DNA of 54,041 nucleotides from Chthoniobacterales bacterium (GTDB lineage Bacteria; Verrucomicrobiota; Verrucomicrobiia; Chthoniobacterales; Terrimicrobiaceae), in contig JACSRU010000079.1 in assembly GCA_014879575.1 (NCBI GenBank), positions 1-54,041 on the forward strand. The letters are read 5' to 3'. Shown piece after piece: positions 113 to 10,844 of the stretch. A program made the position numbers and the translations under genes. Position 1 is the first letter of the stretch. The number at the start of each line of letters is the position of its first letter. The notes beneath the pieces are model-generated. The model searched no databases, was not told the origin of the DNA, and saw only the letters and a program-made list of their open reading frames with translations.

Positions 113-1504
113 TTATTTGGCTCCGCTTCCGAGCAACACGACGGGGATCGTTTTCAGCAGGATGTAGAGGTCAAGAATCACAGACCAGTTGTCGATGTAT
201 TCGAGGTCCATGCGCACCCAGTCTTGAAAATCCGTCACTTTATTTCTGCCGCGAATTTGCCAGAGGCAGGTGAGGCCGGGCTTCATGCTCAGTCGCCGAC
301 GGTGGGCGGTGCGCTCAAATTTTTCCACTTCGTAAACCGGGAGGGGGCGCGGCCCGACCAGGCTCATCTCTCCTTTCAGCACATTGAACAGTTGGGGGAA
401 TTCATCCAGGCTTGTCCGGCGGAGCCAGTGCCCGATTTTTGTGATTCGGGGATCGTTGTCCACCTTGAAGACGGGCCCCTGCATGGTGTTCTGTGACGAA
501 AGTTCCTCGCGGAGGTGCTCGGCGTTGTGGCACATCGTTCGAAACTTCCACATCTCAAAGGGTTTTCCGTGGAGGCCGGAGCGTTGCTGGCGGAAGAACG
601 CCGGCCCCTGGGAAGTGCAGCGGATGATGAGGGCAAGGATCAGGAACAGCGGGGAGAGAACCAGGAGGCCGAGCGCGGCCAGGGATCGGTCCAGGGAGGA
701 TTTGACGAGCATCGCCCAGGAGAGTTCCGGCGAGGCCCGAAAGACAAGCATCGGGCGCTGGGCCAGAACCTCGTAGGATGGACGGGCGACCGAGGTGTGG
801 ATGAAATCCGCATTCAACCAGGCTTCCACGCCCTCGGTCTCGCAGGCTTCGATCGCCCGCTGGACCTTGTCCAACTCCATGCGCTGGATCGCCAGCACCA
901 CGCGTCCCACGGCGTGGCGGTGGAGGGCATCAACAAGGGTTTCCACACCGTGCGCCGCCAGATCAATTGTTGCCACGACCTGGACCTCCAACTTCTGCGA
1001 GGGAGAGAAGGAACGTATCAACTTCTCGATGCTGGCGGGCTCCCCGGCGACGATGATTCTTTCGCCAATCGCCCCCTGGCGCAAACGGCGTATGTAATAC
1101 CAGATGAAAACCCATTCCCGGAGCAACAGGGCGGCCGGTGCCATGATCCCAAAAAGAATCAGCACCGATCGGCTGGGGATTTCGAGGCGAAGAAAGATGA
1201 CGGCACTGGCCAGCATCACAAACAACCAGATTCCCGCCCCCAGCATCTGCCGCAGGGATTTCCAGGCGGACTTCTCCAGCGGATAGTTGTAGAAACCCTG
1301 GAGCTCCAGCAGGAACGGACCGAACGGCATGATGACCGCAAGAATCCAGATAAACTTGCCAAAGTCATCGATGACCCAGAGGTTGTCCAAGATGATCAAC
1401 CCGTTGGATCGAATGAAGTGGGCGAGCCACAAAACCCCGCCCAGGAGCATGGCGTCAATGAATTGGTTGAACTGGCGATTGATTTCTTGTCGGCGGGTGC
1501 TCAT
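113..1504 (-). CDS. Exopolysaccharide biosynthesis polyprenyl glycosylphosphotransferase (sugar transferase)
   Basis: Transfers a sugar-1-phosphate from a nucleotide sugar to undecaprenyl phosphate at the inner membrane, the first step of exopolysaccharide or O-unit assembly. The 463-residue protein has about four hydrophobic N-terminal segments, a central CoA-binding-like region, a further membrane segment, and a C-terminal bacterial sugar transferase domain. Visible motifs are KFRTM near residue 320, RTSLDEFPQ near 363 and GEMSLVGPRP near 379, all hallmarks of the WcaJ/PglC-type phosphoglycosyltransferase family. The frame is open upstream to a TTG at 1573, but I prefer the ATG at 1504, which leaves an 87-base divergent gap to aroD. 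Which sugar is transferred cannot be told. A glycosyltransferase at 41.8 kb and the GH-GT fusion at 4.4-6.9 kb could act in the same polymer pathway, but that is inference. Confidence 0.9.
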   Translation of the reverse strand: MSTRRQEINRQFNQFIDAMLLGGVLWLAHFIRSNGLIILDNLWVIDDFGKFIWILAVIMPFGPFLLELQGFYNYPLEKSAWKSLRQMLGAGIWLFVMLASAVIFLRLEIPSRSVLILFGIMAPAALLLREWVFIWYYIRRLRQGAIGERIIVAGEPASIEKLIRSFSPSQKLEVQVVATIDLAAHGVETLVDALHRHAVGRVVLAIQRMELDKVQRAIEACETEGVEAWLNADFIHTSVARPSYEVLAQRPMLVFRASPELSWAMLVKSSLDRSLAALGLLVLSPLFLILALIIRCTSQGPAFFRQQRSGLHGKPFEMWKFRTMCHNAEHLREELSSQNTMQGPVFKVDNDPRITKIGHWLRRTSLDEFPQLFNVLKGEMSLVGPRPLPVYEVEKFERTAHRRRLSMKPGLTCLWQIRGRNKVTDFQDWVRMDLEYIDNWSVILDLYILLKTIPVVLLGSGAK

Positions 1505-1591
1505 GGACGTCCGTTGTGCAACGGGTATGGTCGTGGGGGCAAAACGTCTATAAAGAATGACTTCATGCGTCAAAAAAATAAACCACTAAAA

Positions 1592-4429: not shown

Positions 4430-6934
4430 TCACTTTTTGATCCTCGTGAGACCGGAGCGGGCGGCGGCCGCCTCCACCAAATCCGCCACGCGTCGCTTCA
4501 GCCGCCAGATTCGCCGGAAAAGAATAACGAGGAAAATCCCGTAGGGGGCCCATAACCACCAATCGCTTCCTTCCACAAGGAATTGCCGGTAGAGGAGGAT
4601 GCCCAGAAGCACCAGGTTGATCAGGAGGGTGGTGGCAACCATCCGGGTGCCGATGTGGACGCGGGTCAGGCATTTGGGCCCGCCGTGATATTCCGTGACC
4701 GAGCGCAGTTTGACCCCCCACCAGAAGCTTCCGTAAATTTGCACATCCCAGTCCTTCCACCCGGTATCCACCGAATAGTTCCAGCCTTCGCTTTCGAGCG
4801 ATTGGACGACTTCCGGGAGGAGGCGTTCCCGTCCCTGGCCGCTCTCACTCCAGAATCGCAGGTGGGAAACGCTGCCGCGCGTGGGCGTGAAATCCTTTTC
4901 GACGCTGGCAATGACCGCAGGGGGGGTGCGTTTGAATTTCAGCCAGGTAAAATACCTGGTCCATCCGCGGACGAGGGGTTGCGCGAGGGCCAGAAATGCC
5001 ACGAGCAGGCGGGCGCGCACGGTGTCGTGTTTTGCCTCCAGACGCGCGTGGATCATGTAGGAAAGTGCCACCAGGAGGGTGCCGCCAAACATCAGATACG
5101 GAACAATCCGCAGGAAGGGCAGGGGAATGGACACCGCAAAAATAAAGAGCGTGAGCACGACCCATTCGATGCTGCTCAGGTAGGCGGCCAGATCGGATTG
5201 CGGAGTCGGATAGATGGATTGGAACAAGCCCTCGCCGAAGATTCCGTGATAGATGACCGGCTTGTTGACGAGCCAGGTAAAGCGCGGGGCGCCGTAGATT
5301 TGTCCCTTCCATTTCGCCGTCCCCGTCGGCCCAAAAAAGACAAGATGCTTGAACCGCAACATGGACTCCGCCTCGCCGTAGCCTTCCTGTTGTTTTTTGA
5401 AGGCCTGGAGGGTGAAGCGTCTGTAGTGCCAGACAATTGCCGCCGGGCTGAAGGCGATCACTCCTCCCGCCTGTTGCAACCGCCAGCAGAAATCCACGTC
5501 GTCGCCGGCCTTCCGGTATTCGGGATCGAACCCGCCCACCAGATCGAAGGCGTGCCGGTGGAATGCCATGTTGCAACCGGGAATGTGCTCGGCCACGACA
5601 TCGGTGAGGAGGACATGGCTTGGTCCTCCGGGCGCGGCGGACACGCAGGCCTGGATCCAGTCCTCCGCCGGAGGGGAAATGTTTGGCCCGCCCACGCCGG
5701 CGTAGTCTCCGCTGATGAGTGTGCCGACGAGGTAGTAGAGCCAATCGGGATCCGCCATGCAGTCGCTGTCCGTATAGACGATGATGTCGCCCTTGGAGGC
5801 GTGCGCCCCCACATTTCTCGCCACGCTCAACCCTTTGTTTTCCTGCCGGATGTTGACAATCCAGGGATGCCGCGCGGCGATTTCCTGCGTGTCATCCTTC
5901 GATCCGTCGTCCACGAGGACCACCTCATAGTCCGGGTAATCCACCTGCTTGAGCGAATCGAGGCATCGTCCAAGCGTCTTGCCGCCGTTGTAGGAACACA
6001 CGATGACCGAGACCTTCGGGTAGGAGGGCAGGTGGACACGCGAGATCATCGAACCCTCGCCGAAGAAGAGTTGCCTGACGGTCGCAAACGCCTCTTTTTT
6101 CGAGCGGTCGCGCCGCACGAGTCCAAACGCCCAGTCCGTGATTTCCTGACCGCCCCGGAACCATTCATCCGTCCAGGCGTAGATGATCGTTCCCGCCAGC
6201 CCGCCGCGGACCACGCTCTCGATGTGCCAGCGGATCATTTCCGCCTGTTCGGATTCCGGATGCCGGATGGTATCCATCCCGAATTCCCCGAGGATGAGGG
6301 GTTTGTCCTCCGCAAGGTTCTGGAGCCTTGCGAGGTAGCGTTCGAAATCCTCCTGGCGGTGGAGGTAAACATTAAAGGTTACGAAGTCGCTGTTTTGCGG
6401 GAGGAGGTATTCCGTCGGCGGATAGCTGGCGTAGGAAAACAACGCGTGGGGATCGGTTTCCTTGCCGATGTTGATCAGCCGCTCGACAAATTCCGTGACC
6501 CGCCGCGCACCCAGCCACCGGACCATCGTGGTTGGAATCTCATTGCCTACGAGATAGCCAAACACCGCCGGATGTCCCGCGTTTTTTGAGACGCCATCCC
6601 GGACGGCCAGTTCGGCGGCGCCCCGAATCTTTGAGTCGTTCAAAAACTCCAAATGCTCCGCCCAGGGGATGGAAATGAGAGCCCGGATGCCCCGGGCGGC
6701 GCAGAGGTCGAGGAACCAGGCGGGTGGCACGTAGTAAATGCGCACAAGGTTCACACCGGCTTCGACCATCAGGTCCAGATCCTCGGCAACCCGCTCGGGA
6801 GTTCCAAAAAATTCCCCGCTCGCATCCGGCGCAAAGGGCCCATACGTCACCCCCTTGATGAAAAACTTTTTGTCGCCCTCGAAGAAAAACTTTGCGCGCA
6901 CGCGCACCGGTGTCAGTTCAGTCACCGGGAACAC
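4430..6934 (-). CDS. Fused glycoside-hydrolase-like TIM barrel and family 2 glycosyltransferase membrane protein
   Basis: An 834-residue fusion. Residues 1-295 form a clan GH-A-like barrel related to GH2/GH5 catalytic domains: GNEIP (acid/base Glu132 after Asn131) and LILGEFGMD (nucleophile Glu217) are both in place, so the domain looks catalytically competent. Residues 305-550 are a GT-A family 2 glycosyltransferase with VIVCSYNGGKTL, VDDGSKDDT, the metal-binding TDSDC (Asp389/Asp391) and GDDVDFCWRL. Hydrophobic helices follow near 585-640, then a soluble stretch, then two more near the C-terminus, which suggests membrane anchoring. The start is GTG 6934 with an in-frame TAA immediately before it. 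A role in making and trimming an exopolysaccharide is inferred. No signal peptide is visible ahead of the barrel, so its topology is an open question. Confidence 0.85.
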   Translation of the reverse strand: MFPVTELTPVRVRAKFFFEGDKKFFIKGVTYGPFAPDASGEFFGTPERVAEDLDLMVEAGVNLVRIYYVPPAWFLDLCAARGIRALISIPWAEHLEFLNDSKIRGAAELAVRDGVSKNAGHPAVFGYLVGNEIPTTMVRWLGARRVTEFVERLINIGKETDPHALFSYASYPPTEYLLPQNSDFVTFNVYLHRQEDFERYLARLQNLAEDKPLILGEFGMDTIRHPESEQAEMIRWHIESVVRGGLAGTIIYAWTDEWFRGGQEITDWAFGLVRRDRSKKEAFATVRQLFFGEGSMISRVHLPSYPKVSVIVCSYNGGKTLGRCLDSLKQVDYPDYEVVLVDDGSKDDTQEIAARHPWIVNIRQENKGLSVARNVGAHASKGDIIVYTDSDCMADPDWLYYLVGTLISGDYAGVGGPNISPPAEDWIQACVSAAPGGPSHVLLTDVVAEHIPGCNMAFHRHAFDLVGGFDPEYRKAGDDVDFCWRLQQAGGVIAFSPAAIVWHYRRFTLQAFKKQQEGYGEAESMLRFKHLVFFGPTGTAKWKGQIYGAPRFTWLVNKPVIYHGIFGEGLFQSIYPTPQSDLAAYLSSIEWVVLTLFIFAVSIPLPFLRIVPYLMFGGTLLVALSYMIHARLEAKHDTVRARLLVAFLALAQPLVRGWTRYFTWLKFKRTPPAVIASVEKDFTPTRGSVSHLRFWSESGQGRERLLPEVVQSLESEGWNYSVDTGWKDWDVQIYGSFWWGVKLRSVTEYHGGPKCLTRVHIGTRMVATTLLINLVLLGILLYRQFLVEGSDWWLWAPYGIFLVILFRRIWRLKRRVADLVEAAAARSGLTRIKK

Positions 6935-7077
6935 TTACCATCAGGATCGCACGTGAGGCGAGAGCGGATTTGCGCGAAAATCCGTCGTCATCGCGCGGAG
7001 GGGTGGGTTGCCCGGGGATGGCAGGAAGGCGGGAAAAAACATTTCGTTCCATCCTCCAACCTGCGAATAGTCTCCCG

Positions 7078-7833
7078 ATGCATCTTCTGTCTAGTTTCCT
7101 TTTCAGTGCGGCGGTTGTTTTTTGCGGACTCGCGATGGCCGCGGTTTTCACACGGGTGGCCTTTGCGGTGACGGAAAAAATCACCTTTGCCCCGGTCCTG
7201 GATTTTTTCATCAGTCTGTTTACCTGGCTGCCCTGGGTGGCCGGTCTCTGGCTCTCTGGTTGGATCGGATTGCTCGCGGCCCTCTTTGCCCAAGTGGTTT
7301 TTCTCCATGCCTTCTGCCTCACGCATCGCGCCCTCCGCGGGAAAAAGGGACGGACCCTGACCGATGCGCAGGCGCGTCTCCTCGGGCCGGTCCGCAATCA
7401 ACTCTGCCTGTTGCTCCAGACTCCGGCGGTTCTGGTCTTTGCCCTGGTCCGCCTCGCGGAGATCCTTCTCTACCCTTCCGTGGCCAGGCTGGGCCGTCTG
7501 CCGACCTACAAGTCCTCCGAGTGGGTGAATCTTTCCCGGCACAAATACGATGGATTGATCGGCTACGATCTCCTGTGGTGTTGGTATTGTGATTGGATGA
7601 CCGGCGTCTGGGCGTTGGGCAGCGAAATGCTGCGCAACATCGAATCCTTCTGGTGTCCGATCCAATTTCGCGACCCCAGAAAAAACCGGAACGTCTCGAC
7701 GGATTTCCCCGACATCGCCAAATGGGCGCCGGCGGACGGAACCATGGAGGACGCCGTCCGGGCGTTCGAGGCGCATTATGACGGACGCCGACCGAATTCC
7801 TGGTGGGGACACCCGGACCGCAACTCGCCTTGA
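7078..7833 (+). CDS. Unassigned membrane protein with a WCWYCDW motif
   Basis: I do not recognise a named family. The 251-residue product begins with a hydrophobic segment (about 3-30), followed by a second strongly hydrophobic stretch (about 38-85) rich in Trp, Leu and Phe, and further helices around 105-135. The C-terminal third is soluble and contains an aromatic, cysteine-rich motif, LLWCWYCDWMTGVW, that may be a metal or redox site. The frame is open upstream to 6892, but the ATG at 7078, immediately before the hydrophobic leader, is the better start. It is divergent from the GH-GT fusion gene and is followed by a small overlapping gene. Confidence 0.72.
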   Translation: MHLLSSFLFSAAVVFCGLAMAAVFTRVAFAVTEKITFAPVLDFFISLFTWLPWVAGLWLSGWIGLLAALFAQVVFLHAFCLTHRALRGKKGRTLTDAQARLLGPVRNQLCLLLQTPAVLVFALVRLAEILLYPSVARLGRLPTYKSSEWVNLSRHKYDGLIGYDLLWCWYCDWMTGVWALGSEMLRNIESFWCPIQFRDPRKNRNVSTDFPDIAKWAPADGTMEDAVRAFEAHYDGRRPNSWWGHPDRNSP

Positions 7834-8162
7834 TTTTTCAACGGGCGGATCCCAACACCGAATACCGTGCCTTGCGCCTCCTGAGCGAAGGCGGACGCTG
7901 GGAACTCGGCTTGAGTCCCTACCAAAGCGGGACGCGCCTGCGGATGGGCCTTGCCGGACGTCCGCCCTCGGTCCTCGACTTTTGTCTCGGCCACGACCCC
8001 GGGATTTGCTCGCCTGTGATGCTTGCCGTCCTCAAACTCCTCGAATCCCTGCCCGAATCCTCATCCGCCACGGAAATTGACGCCCTCTTTCCCTGGGCCG
8101 GAACACGCCCGGATCTGACCATTCATCTTACCCCCTTGCTTCAACTCGCCGCCCGCCGGTAA
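7830..8162 (+). CDS. Small hypothetical protein, possibly translationally coupled
   Basis: A 110-residue reading frame of unknown function without membrane segments or recognisable motifs. A TTG at 7830 overlaps the TGA of the preceding membrane-protein gene (TTGA), a common coupling arrangement; a GTG at 7803 would give 119 residues. The composition is protein-like, with a Leu-rich C-terminus. Against it, the last 102 bases run antisense to the tail of the PEP-CTERM gene, and the start codon is weak. I think it is more likely real than not. Confidence 0.5.
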   Translation: MIFQRADPNTEYRALRLLSEGGRWELGLSPYQSGTRLRMGLAGRPPSVLDFCLGHDPGICSPVMLAVLKLLESLPESSSATEIDALFPWAGTRPDLTIHLTPLLQLAARR

Positions 8163-10844
8163 GGAGCCCACGGAGTGCCTCCGGCGACGCCGAACCAGAG
8201 CCGCCGCCAAACCCGTGCCGAGAAGCCCCAGGAACGAAGGCTCAGGAACCACCACCAGCTGCCAACTTCCCGCCTGAAAATAGGCACTCTTTCCCCCCCC
8301 GATATCCGCTGCGTTGCTTGATCCCCAGTTTGAGACGTTGGTAAAATTGAATGTCGCCGTTCCATTGATCAATGTATATGTGCCGTTTGCCACGCTCCCA
8401 TCGAGTCCGACAAGGTTGCCGATGGAGAATCCTCCGAAGGTGACTGCGGCTCCGTTGACGGTCAGGGTGTTTGCGATGTTGAAGACAAACTTGGCACCGG
8501 AGTTGAGAGCCAGGCTGCCGACGATGCTTCCGTCGCCCCCGAGTGTGCCATTGCTTTCCACCGTCAACGCCCCGGTGCCGGTGTGGGCTCCCTGGATGAG
8601 GAGTGTGCCCGCGCTCACGGTGGTTGCACCACCATACGTATTGTTGGCGGTCAGTTCCAAGGTGCCCGTGCCAAGCTTTTTCAATCCGAGAATATTGGCA
8701 CCGGCATTCGTGTTGGCCAGGAGGCCTGCATAGGTGAATATTCCACCGGTGGCATTCGTTGTATCCATGCCGATAGAGGATCCATTTCTGAAACCACCGG
8801 AAGCCGTGCCGAGGGACTTGAGGAGAGCGATGTCGGCGGGCGTGAACTCACCCGTGCCTCCGACATTGAAGGCCGTCGTGGCTCCGGAATATGTCACGAT
8901 GTTTGCACTCGTCCAGATCGAGGTTCCTCCGTTGTAAAGCGAAACTCTCTGGGTGAAACGGAGCATGCCGGCACTGGTCGTCGTGGACCCGGTATAGGAA
9001 TTTGTTCCGCTCAATACCCAGGTGCCCGTGCCGTTCTTTGTGACGCTTGTTGCTCCCGAGCCATTATTGGCAAGGGCCGCTGCCAGCGTGTTGTTGCCCC
9101 TGTTGGTGCCGGTGAGGAAAAGCCTGCGCGTTTGGTTGTTCGTGCCATAGGCCAAGCCGCCAGTGTTCGTGAACTTGATGTCCCCGCTTCCGGATGCGTC
9201 CAAGGTGGCACTATGATTGTTGCTTGTTCCGTTGATTGTAAAGGATCGGTCCGTGCTGTCGCCGGAGCCGACATATCGCAAGGTGGAGTTGTTGGGGAGC
9301 AACAGCCTGCTGGCCGCATTGGATGAGGCACCGATGCTGCTGGCGACTCCGCCGTTGGCCAGCTTGCTCACGGCCAAGACGGCGTTCGCTGTTCCCCGCG
9401 CTGTTGTGATTCCTGTGTAGGAACTGTTTGCGTTCGTGAGGAAGACTGTTCCCGTGTTTGTGATAGTGAGATTACCGGCTGTGCCGACGCCGTTAAAATT
9501 CGCAATGGCACCGCTGACGGTTAACGATCTTGCACCGCCCAGTGTGAGGGTGCGGCCCGTACCGGCGGTGTTGGAAAGGAAAATGGGGCCGGAGAGTTCA
9601 GTGGCTCCCGTATTGGAGTTCGTGAGAGTGCGATTGCCATTCAGAGTGATTGACCCACTGAGTGTCAGTTGATTCGCCCCCCCTATTATAAAGTTGCCAT
9701 TGAGCGCAACGCTGTTGGCAACCGCGTTTGCACCGCTCAGGTTGGCAGAGGATTCCAGGGTGCCGCCAGTCACGGAAAATTTCCCCGTTCCAAGTGAGGC
9801 TTTGTCCCCGATGCGCGTTGTTCCGCTCGTGCTTGTAAATCCCCCCTGGAAATTCGAACCCGCCGCCCCTGCAATCGCCAGGGTGCCGGTGCTTCCCTTA
9901 CTCAGTGTGTTTGTCGTATTGACCGCATCCAGGGATCCCACGGAGAGAACTCCTGCCGAGACAAGAATCGATCTGGTTCCATTTATAATCAGGGATCCCG
10001 AACCGAGACTCAGATTTTTGCTGCCGGTAAAGGTCGTGCTGTTTCCATTCAGCAGCACATCGTTGTTGTTTGCCAGGGTGATGTCTGCCCCGGATGTATT
10101 ATTCAACGTATATTGTCCATTCAGGATCAACGTTCCCGAGCTGACCGCATTCGCGTGGTTGATCATCAAAGTGACGCTCCCTCCGTTAATATAGGTGTTG
10201 CCGGTGTAGCTATTGCTTCCCGAGAGTACGATCTGGCTTCTTCCGGCTCCTCCGATGGAATTCAACGCCAGGCCCGCGATGCCACCCGTGCTCGAAATGG
10301 GCCCTGAAAGCACCAAGGTGTTTGTTCCCGATGCGCCCCGTGTTTGGATGAAGGTCATGGTGCCGGACGCCGCCCCGAGAACGAGGGGTGCGATGACGGC
10401 GTTCGATCCGGTGGTGTTGCTGAAGTAGAGAGCGGCTTGAGTTGTGCCGGTTCCCGAGCTGTTCAGCGTAAGACTCCCTGTTCCGGACGAAAGGTTCCAC
10501 CCCGAGGCGAGAGGCGACGTGAACGTGACCCGGCTGACACTGATATTCCCGGAGAGAATCGGCTGGCTGCCGGGGGTTCCCGGAATCACCGCCACATCGC
10601 TGGAGCCGGGAAGGCCACCCGTCCAGCTGCCGGCCGCATTGAAGTTGGTGCCACTGTTATTCCAAGTCACATTTGCTGCCAAAACGCAATCGCCTGCCAG
10701 ACAGGACAGCGCACAGAGGAGAAATAGGAGGCGGAGTGGGGAAGGGGATTCGTTAATGAGTGCGCGAGATGCGGCAAAGTGTATGCAATATGTTCCAATC
10801 GTCAATGTGGTTTTTACTCTTTTCGGGGGATATACCGCGTGCAA
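8061..10844 (-). CDS. Autotransporter-associated beta-strand repeat protein with PEP-CTERM tail
   Basis: A predicted extracellular 927-residue beta-helix protein. After a hydrophobic signal segment (about residues 36-56, cleavage near A-A-N) the sequence is Ser/Thr/Gly/Asn-rich with repeated units of the form LSGSNSYTGNTYINGGS, LSGTNSYTGSTTTSAG and LTANNTYGGATTVSAGTL. Near the C-terminus, VVPEPS, a hydrophobic helix and an RRRRR cluster form a PEP-CTERM sorting signal. There is no beta-barrel translocator, as usual for this verrucomicrobial class, so export would be Sec plus PEP-CTERM processing. Unusually, 31 further residues follow the arginine cluster and run antisense into the preceding small gene. 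The start is uncertain: TTG 10844 is the longest and TTG 10805 is possible. Confidence 0.85.
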   Translation of the reverse strand: MHAVYPPKRVKTTLTIGTYCIHFAASRALINESPSPLRLLFLLCALSCLAGDCVLAANVTWNNSGTNFNAAGSWTGGLPGSSDVAVIPGTPGSQPILSGNISVSRVTFTSPLASGWNLSSGTGSLTLNSSGTGTTQAALYFSNTTGSNAVIAPLVLGAASGTMTFIQTRGASGTNTLVLSGPISSTGGIAGLALNSIGGAGRSQIVLSGSNSYTGNTYINGGSVTLMINHANAVSSGTLILNGQYTLNNTSGADITLANNNDVLLNGNSTTFTGSKNLSLGSGSLIINGTRSILVSAGVLSVGSLDAVNTTNTLSKGSTGTLAIAGAAGSNFQGGFTSTSGTTRIGDKASLGTGKFSVTGGTLESSANLSGANAVANSVALNGNFIIGGANQLTLSGSITLNGNRTLTNSNTGATELSGPIFLSNTAGTGRTLTLGGARSLTVSGAIANFNGVGTAGNLTITNTGTVFLTNANSSYTGITTARGTANAVLAVSKLANGGVASSIGASSNAASRLLLPNNSTLRYVGSGDSTDRSFTINGTSNNHSATLDASGSGDIKFTNTGGLAYGTNNQTRRLFLTGTNRGNNTLAAALANNGSGATSVTKNGTGTWVLSGTNSYTGSTTTSAGMLRFTQRVSLYNGGTSIWTSANIVTYSGATTAFNVGGTGEFTPADIALLKSLGTASGGFRNGSSIGMDTTNATGGIFTYAGLLANTNAGANILGLKKLGTGTLELTANNTYGGATTVSAGTLLIQGAHTGTGALTVESNGTLGGDGSIVGSLALNSGAKFVFNIANTLTVNGAAVTFGGFSIGNLVGLDGSVANGTYTLINGTATFNFTNVSNWGSSNAADIGGGKSAYFQAGSWQLVVVPEPSFLGLLGTGLAAALVRRRRRHSVGSLPAGGELKQGGKMNGQIRACSGPGKEGVNFRGG

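Follow-up and report, generated by a model that had tools for sequence, protein, structure and literature searches.

The window, a stretch of 54,041 nucleotides from a Chthoniobacterales bacterium, encodes on its minus strand (positions 4430–6934) a protein of 834 residues in which a clan GH-A glycoside hydrolase barrel is fused to a family 2 glycosyltransferase (GT2) and followed by predicted membrane helices. The fusion is an old, conserved family of Verrucomicrobiota in which the active-site residues of both domains are kept, its distribution follows that of an ABC exporter, and in a sister group the two genes are adjacent. The combination of fusion and membrane exporter suggests a single small system that synthesises, edits and exports an as yet undescribed glycan.

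Gene and domain architecture

The gene is a single uninterrupted frame with no internal stop. It begins with GTG at 6934, and an alternative in-frame GTG at 6925 matches the relatives equally well. Sequencing or assembly artefact as the origin of the fusion was rejected, the same fusion recurring in independent assemblies. Nor is it a chance event, since the gene is present, mostly as the full-length fusion, in 44 of 58 close genomes and, as a rule in single copy, in 103 of the 117 genomes of the order that were surveyed (completeness at least 90%). In some species of the order it is flanked by hemL upstream and queA downstream, and no pathway partner was seen among its gene neighbours in the order. 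In the window it is adjoined by a divergently transcribed ORF (6892–7833, plus strand) that gave no Pfam or NCBIfam match and that probably begins only at an ATG near 7080. Two genes from the fusion lies the gene for a 927-residue PEP-CTERM protein with autotransporter-type PATR repeats (8061–10844, minus strand).

An AF2 model of the N-terminal region (residues ~10–290; 6065–6907; this and all further features of the protein are on the minus strand) was built with 57 related sequences and had pLDDT values mostly between 70 and 95. It showed a TIM barrel with all eight strands (residues 26–30, 63–66, 84–88, 124–128, 165–167, 185–189, 213–218 and 248–251) and the layout of clan GH-A, with E132, part of a GNEIP motif, after strand four and E217, part of GEFGMD, on strand seven. 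N131-E132 (6539–6544) is thus the predicted acid/base motif at the end of β4, and E217 (6284–6286) the predicted nucleophile on β7. An alignment of 109 homologues, the most distant of ~36% identity, showed N131, E132, E217 and F218 to be unchanged in every sequence, as were R65 and N188, which are expected near the active site of the barrel. The original prediction had named E132 and E217 as catalytic residues and had called for structure prediction to see whether the barrel was complete and the glutamates in position; both proved to be the case.

When the barrel was compared as a profile with the PDB, the best match was LaGH157 (E 2.5e-14), followed by GH2 enzymes, GH72 Gas2 and GH158; Gas2 and GH158 are β-1,3-glucan enzymes. 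Structural comparison with VIA-align also placed LaGH157 at the top (Z 30.7, 294 residues, rmsd 2.9, 20% identity), but effectively tied with a GH2 enzyme (Z 30.2), the GH2 glucuronidases scoring about 30, and a Foldseek search agreed with this ranking. The residue altered in the deposited E224A mutant of LaGH157 (9g4n) aligns with E217. PF02836, the GH2 barrel, matched the isolated barrel above its cut-off (29.9 vs 21), but the N-terminal sugar-binding and immunoglobulin-like domains of GH2 enzymes are absent ahead of the barrel, which starts at about residue 10 (Pfam, AF2). PF03198 (GH72) also scored above its cut-off, but with a match that spans only the first ~75 residues, and Pfam searches with the full protein and with the isolated barrel gave no match to GH17. 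Most plausibly, therefore, the barrel is of a GH157/GH2-like retaining type, the two families being tied by modelled fold. The choice between GH2 and GH5 offered by the original prediction is thereby sharpened: the likeness to GH2 stands and GH157 is added. As GH157, the nearest profile match, acts on linear β-1,3-glucan (PMC10229575), this polymer is the leading guess for the substrate. It should be taken as a lead and not more, because the fold of the barrel is about equally close to that of the GH2 glucuronidases.

The middle of the protein (residues ~306–575; 5210–6019) is a GT2 glycosyltransferase region of GT-A type, matched by PF00535 (Glycos_transf_2) at residues 309–463 with an E-value of 5e-31 (108 bits vs a cut-off of 23.3). 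The DxD motif that had been noticed at residues 389–391 is D389-S390-D391 (5762–5770), and both aspartates are the same in 109/109 homologues. So are G477, D478, D479 and V480 of the GDDVD sequence at residues 477–481 (5492–5506), the predicted catalytic-base motif, of which D481 is near-invariant. The best NCBIfam match of this half was MftF, with an E-value of 1.8e-45 and 155.7 bits, below the cut-off of 280. Modelled alone, it gave a weaker structure (pLDDT 67, pTM 0.44), for which Foldseek found general GT2/GT27 matches only; no assignment was obtained for residues ~500–580 or for the small domain near the C-terminus. Neither the window protein nor any of the 17 relatives checked has Q(Q/R)xxRW, the motif of processive BcsA-like synthases, and the product is therefore as likely to be a short chain, or to result from a single transfer, as to be a polymer.

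Hydropathy averaged over the alignment predicted four membrane helices, all C-terminal to the glycosyltransferase: helices 1 and 2 at residues 592–610 and 610–628 (5051–5161) and helices 3 and 4 at residues 763–781 and 789–807 (4514–4648). Weaker peaks were seen at residues 637–655 and 430–448. The AF2 model showed a small α/β domain without a Pfam match at residues ~690–765 (4640–4867), and an Arg/Lys-rich tail follows helices 3 and 4. The reading frame, the barrel fold, the PF00535 match and these helices agree with the proposal that hydrolase and glycosyltransferase are combined in one membrane protein.

The same averaged hydropathy revealed no membrane-like segment between the barrel and the glycosyltransferase. 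No signal peptide was found in the window protein, as the original prediction had stated, or in any homologue, and no N-terminal hydrophobic stretch was seen; in 9 of the 109 homologues a marginal hydrophobic window starts among the first 300 residues, either in the barrel or in the first glycosyltransferase strand. GT2 domains acting on nucleotide sugars do so in the cytosol and, with nothing membrane-spanning between the two domains, the barrel is most likely also cytosolic, although the side of the membrane is deduced from sequence. The alternative of an unusual topology, which had been raised together with that of a cytoplasmic hydrolase, is now the less favoured of the two because of the f15 family, in which the same fusion occurs without convincing helices. 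The eight f15 relatives (680–718 residues) keep both active sites and have neither a signal peptide nor a convincing membrane helix, which places both domains on one soluble chain there.

Distribution and the ABC exporter

Identity between the fusions is ~64% or more across most of the order, and f15, f16/f19 and f18, three other groups of its class, have the fusion too. Among the best 80 of 523 matches, named records with the fusion came from Chthoniobacterales/Terrimicrobiaceae and their relatives. Methylacidiphilales probably have such a protein too, annotated as a TIM barrel with a fused glycosyltransferase. A search of plasmids with the fusion gave mostly matches to the glycosyltransferase region, none of them covering 80% of the query. 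All barrels found in 241 genomes of the phylum are fused to this glycosyltransferase except in three stand-alone proteins, which have N-termini of exported, lipoprotein-like type and resemble LaGH157. Since these stand-alone relatives look exported, the fusion seems to have arisen when a barrel of secreted type was joined to a cytosolic glycosyltransferase, if the direction of the event is read correctly. One genome, G391, carries a second fusion of 40% identity (L188:385–4166, minus strand) with the acid/base motif GKE instead of GNE.

In the sister group f16/f19 the gene for an ABC exporter of 614–627 residues lies directly behind the fusion in 6/7 genomes, overlapping it or within ~25 bp. 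The orthologue in the genome of the window (593 residues; G000:C63:14375–16153, equivalent to L156:6376–8157) is unlinked to the fusion. Both genes were present in 100 of the 117 genomes of the order and neither in 12. The remaining 5 were discordant: three genomes (G002, G380 and G383) have the fusion without the exporter and two (G001 and G359) the exporter without the fusion. Fisher's test gave 5e-12 for this co-occurrence, or 2e-10 when two 0.9-Mb genomes were left out, but both values ignore phylogeny and overstate the significance. Stronger evidence for a link is that the two were lost together repeatedly. Fusion and exporter are absent together from the genus g4, from G013, G035 and G036, from the family f5 and from the reduced genomes of f7, spread over about six lineages; G013 is 99% complete and its congeners have both genes. 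As a control, the exopolysaccharide polyprenyl glycosylphosphotransferase encoded at 113–1573 (minus strand; TIGR03025 above cut-off), which occurs in 66/117 genomes of the order, showed no association with the fusion (59/103 vs 7/14, p 0.78). Another ABC exporter of the window's genome was uninformative as a control, being found in only 2/117 genomes.

At the level of the phylum, an orthologue was defined by an E-value below 1e-150, the next best being 1e-112, and all 13 genomes with an exporter orthologue also have the fusion. Their fusions form one supported clade (99/97). The 14 fusion-bearing genomes that lack the orthologue are exactly those of f15 and f18. The f18 proteins have membrane helices and those of f15 look soluble, but both groups lack the orthologue, so export by this ABC protein is not general to the fusion family. 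The gene behind the fusion in three f18 relatives (L125–L127) is conserved and resembles that of a glycerol-3-phosphate dehydrogenase, which may point to another pathway there.

NdvA/ChvA is the MsbA-type ABC exporter that partners cyclic β-1,2-glucan synthase, and exporters of the MsbA type carry lipids too. The ABC partner of the fusion scored 300 bits against TIGR01192 (cut-off 585) and 382 against PRK13657 (cut-off 733), and scored highest, though below every cut-off, against MsbA lipid flippases. Judged by these scores, it is an MsbA/NdvA-type exporter in general and not a certified NdvA.

The exporter gene is followed by that of a GT-B protein (PF13524) in 14/26 loci and by that of a hexapeptide acyltransferase in 9/26. 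The GT-B protein and the fusion are both present in 99 of the 117 genomes, both absent in 11 and discordant in 7 (Fisher 5e-10, a value that ignores phylogeny), and in L188 the GT-B gene overlaps that of the divergent fusion paralogue. Three exporter loci (L158, L175 and L176) each encode a pair of GT-B paralogues with PF13524.

Discussion

A conserved chain with two intact, opposing active sites, together with the distribution of the exporter, points to a defined glycan pathway. There is about an even chance that we are dealing with a bifunctional, membrane-bound enzyme that has its two sites on the cytosolic side, builds a glycan with its GT2 domain, trims or transglycosylates it with the barrel and hands the product to the ABC exporter. 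Starting from a nucleotide sugar, which is most plausibly UDP-glucose, the GT2 domain would make a short glycan, and the barrel would cut the chain or rearrange it by transglycosylation, giving control of length, branching or ring closure. The MsbA/NdvA-type exporter would then carry the glycan across the inner membrane, and the GT-B protein, with the hexapeptide acyltransferase in some species, may decorate it. We infer that both sites are active, that they lie on the cytosolic side and that this ABC protein exports the product; glucose as the sugar, a β-1,3 linkage and transfer rather than hydrolysis are guesses. A point against export is that the genes of fusion and exporter are as a rule not adjacent in the window's order.

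The likeness of the ABC protein to MsbA could also mean that the product is lipid-linked. The GT2 domain would then add sugar to a lipid carrier or glycolipid, the barrel would be an editing hydrolase or an acceptor-handling domain and the ABC protein would flip the glycolipid. The absence of the QxxRW motif and the membrane helices adjoining the glycosyltransferase fit such a scheme, which is nonetheless unlikely, given the soluble f15 relatives without helices and the barrel's nearest enzyme relatives, among which GH157 (PMC10229575), GH72 and GH158 have glucan chains as substrates. Those f15 proteins, which look soluble in genomes without an exporter orthologue, are in turn what intracellular storage or solute metabolism would predict, where an oligosaccharide would be both produced and recycled in the cytosol by the enzyme, with an indirect link to the exporter; the lack of an adjoining transporter gene in most of the order agrees with this. 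The joint absence of fusion and exporter in about six lineages and their overlapping genes in the sister group make it improbable. We would likewise be surprised if the barrel had given up hydrolysis to become a glycan-binding or scaffold domain for the glycosyltransferase. A cytosolic barrel whose stand-alone relatives are exported may well have changed its use, and N131 has become K in one paralogue, but pure binding would not need both glutamates, and N131, E132, E217, R65 and N188 are unchanged in the 109 homologues.

The preferred reading, a cytosolic enzyme that builds and edits a glycan for export, can be taken a step further. The fusion may be a hitherto undescribed glucan synthase/transglycosylase that evolved separately, works in the cytosol as one protein and is served by an ABC exporter and decorating enzymes of its own. 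Such a system, common throughout Verrucomicrobiota, would possibly make short cyclic or branched β-1,3-glucans and be convergent with rhizobial NdvB/NdvA. In this extended form the proposal is tentative and rather doubtful. Verrucomicrobiota are abundant in soil and freshwater, but to our knowledge little has been learned about the glycans of their surface and periplasm.

Comparison with known systems

In the literature searched, most subscription journals lying outside its scope, nothing was found on a GH-GT2 fusion of this family in Verrucomicrobia or Methylacidiphilum, and within that scope the type of barrel, the cytosolic layout and the set of partners appear to be undescribed. Fusions of glycoside hydrolases and glycosyltransferases for glucan synthesis are already known. 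The GH17-GT2 orphan/NdvB proteins of pseudomonads likewise combine an N-terminal clan GH-A barrel with a GT2 domain in one membrane protein, and the GH17 barrels of two members transglycosylate β-1,3-glucan (PMC10237404). Their barrel is predicted to be periplasmic, with a transmembrane region before the glycosyltransferase and a QRxRW motif (PMC10237404), whereas the fusion has a GH157/GH2-like barrel, no membrane span before the glycosyltransferase, no QxxRW motif and a co-occurring ABC exporter. The cyclic β-1,2-glucan synthase (Cgs/ChvB/NdvB) resembles the fusion in being a glycan synthase that has domains for glycosyl transfer and for glycan processing, which are all cytosolic in Cgs (PMC10901819) and probably so in the fusion. 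Cgs is several times longer and consists of a GT84 domain, a GH144-like cyclase domain and a GH94 phosphorylase (PMC10901819), none of which was matched in the fusion by Pfam or NCBIfam. As defining features of both systems are missing, the fusion was assigned neither to NdvB/NdvA nor to the GH17-GT2 proteins.

Two other relatives each resemble one half of the protein. MftF, the mycofactocin glycosyltransferase, is similar to the GT half only. LaGH157 (537 residues; 9fz9, 9g4n and 9g5g) is the closest to the barrel by profile and, in a tie with GH2, by Z score, with its catalytic E224 aligned to E217, but has no glycosyltransferase domain, and a GH157 enzyme of Bacteroides was characterised as a degradative enzyme of the cell surface (PMC10229575). 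It is possible that a degradative barrel has been recruited into the cytosol as a tool for setting chain length or closing rings, as has happened independently in the cyclic glucan synthases.
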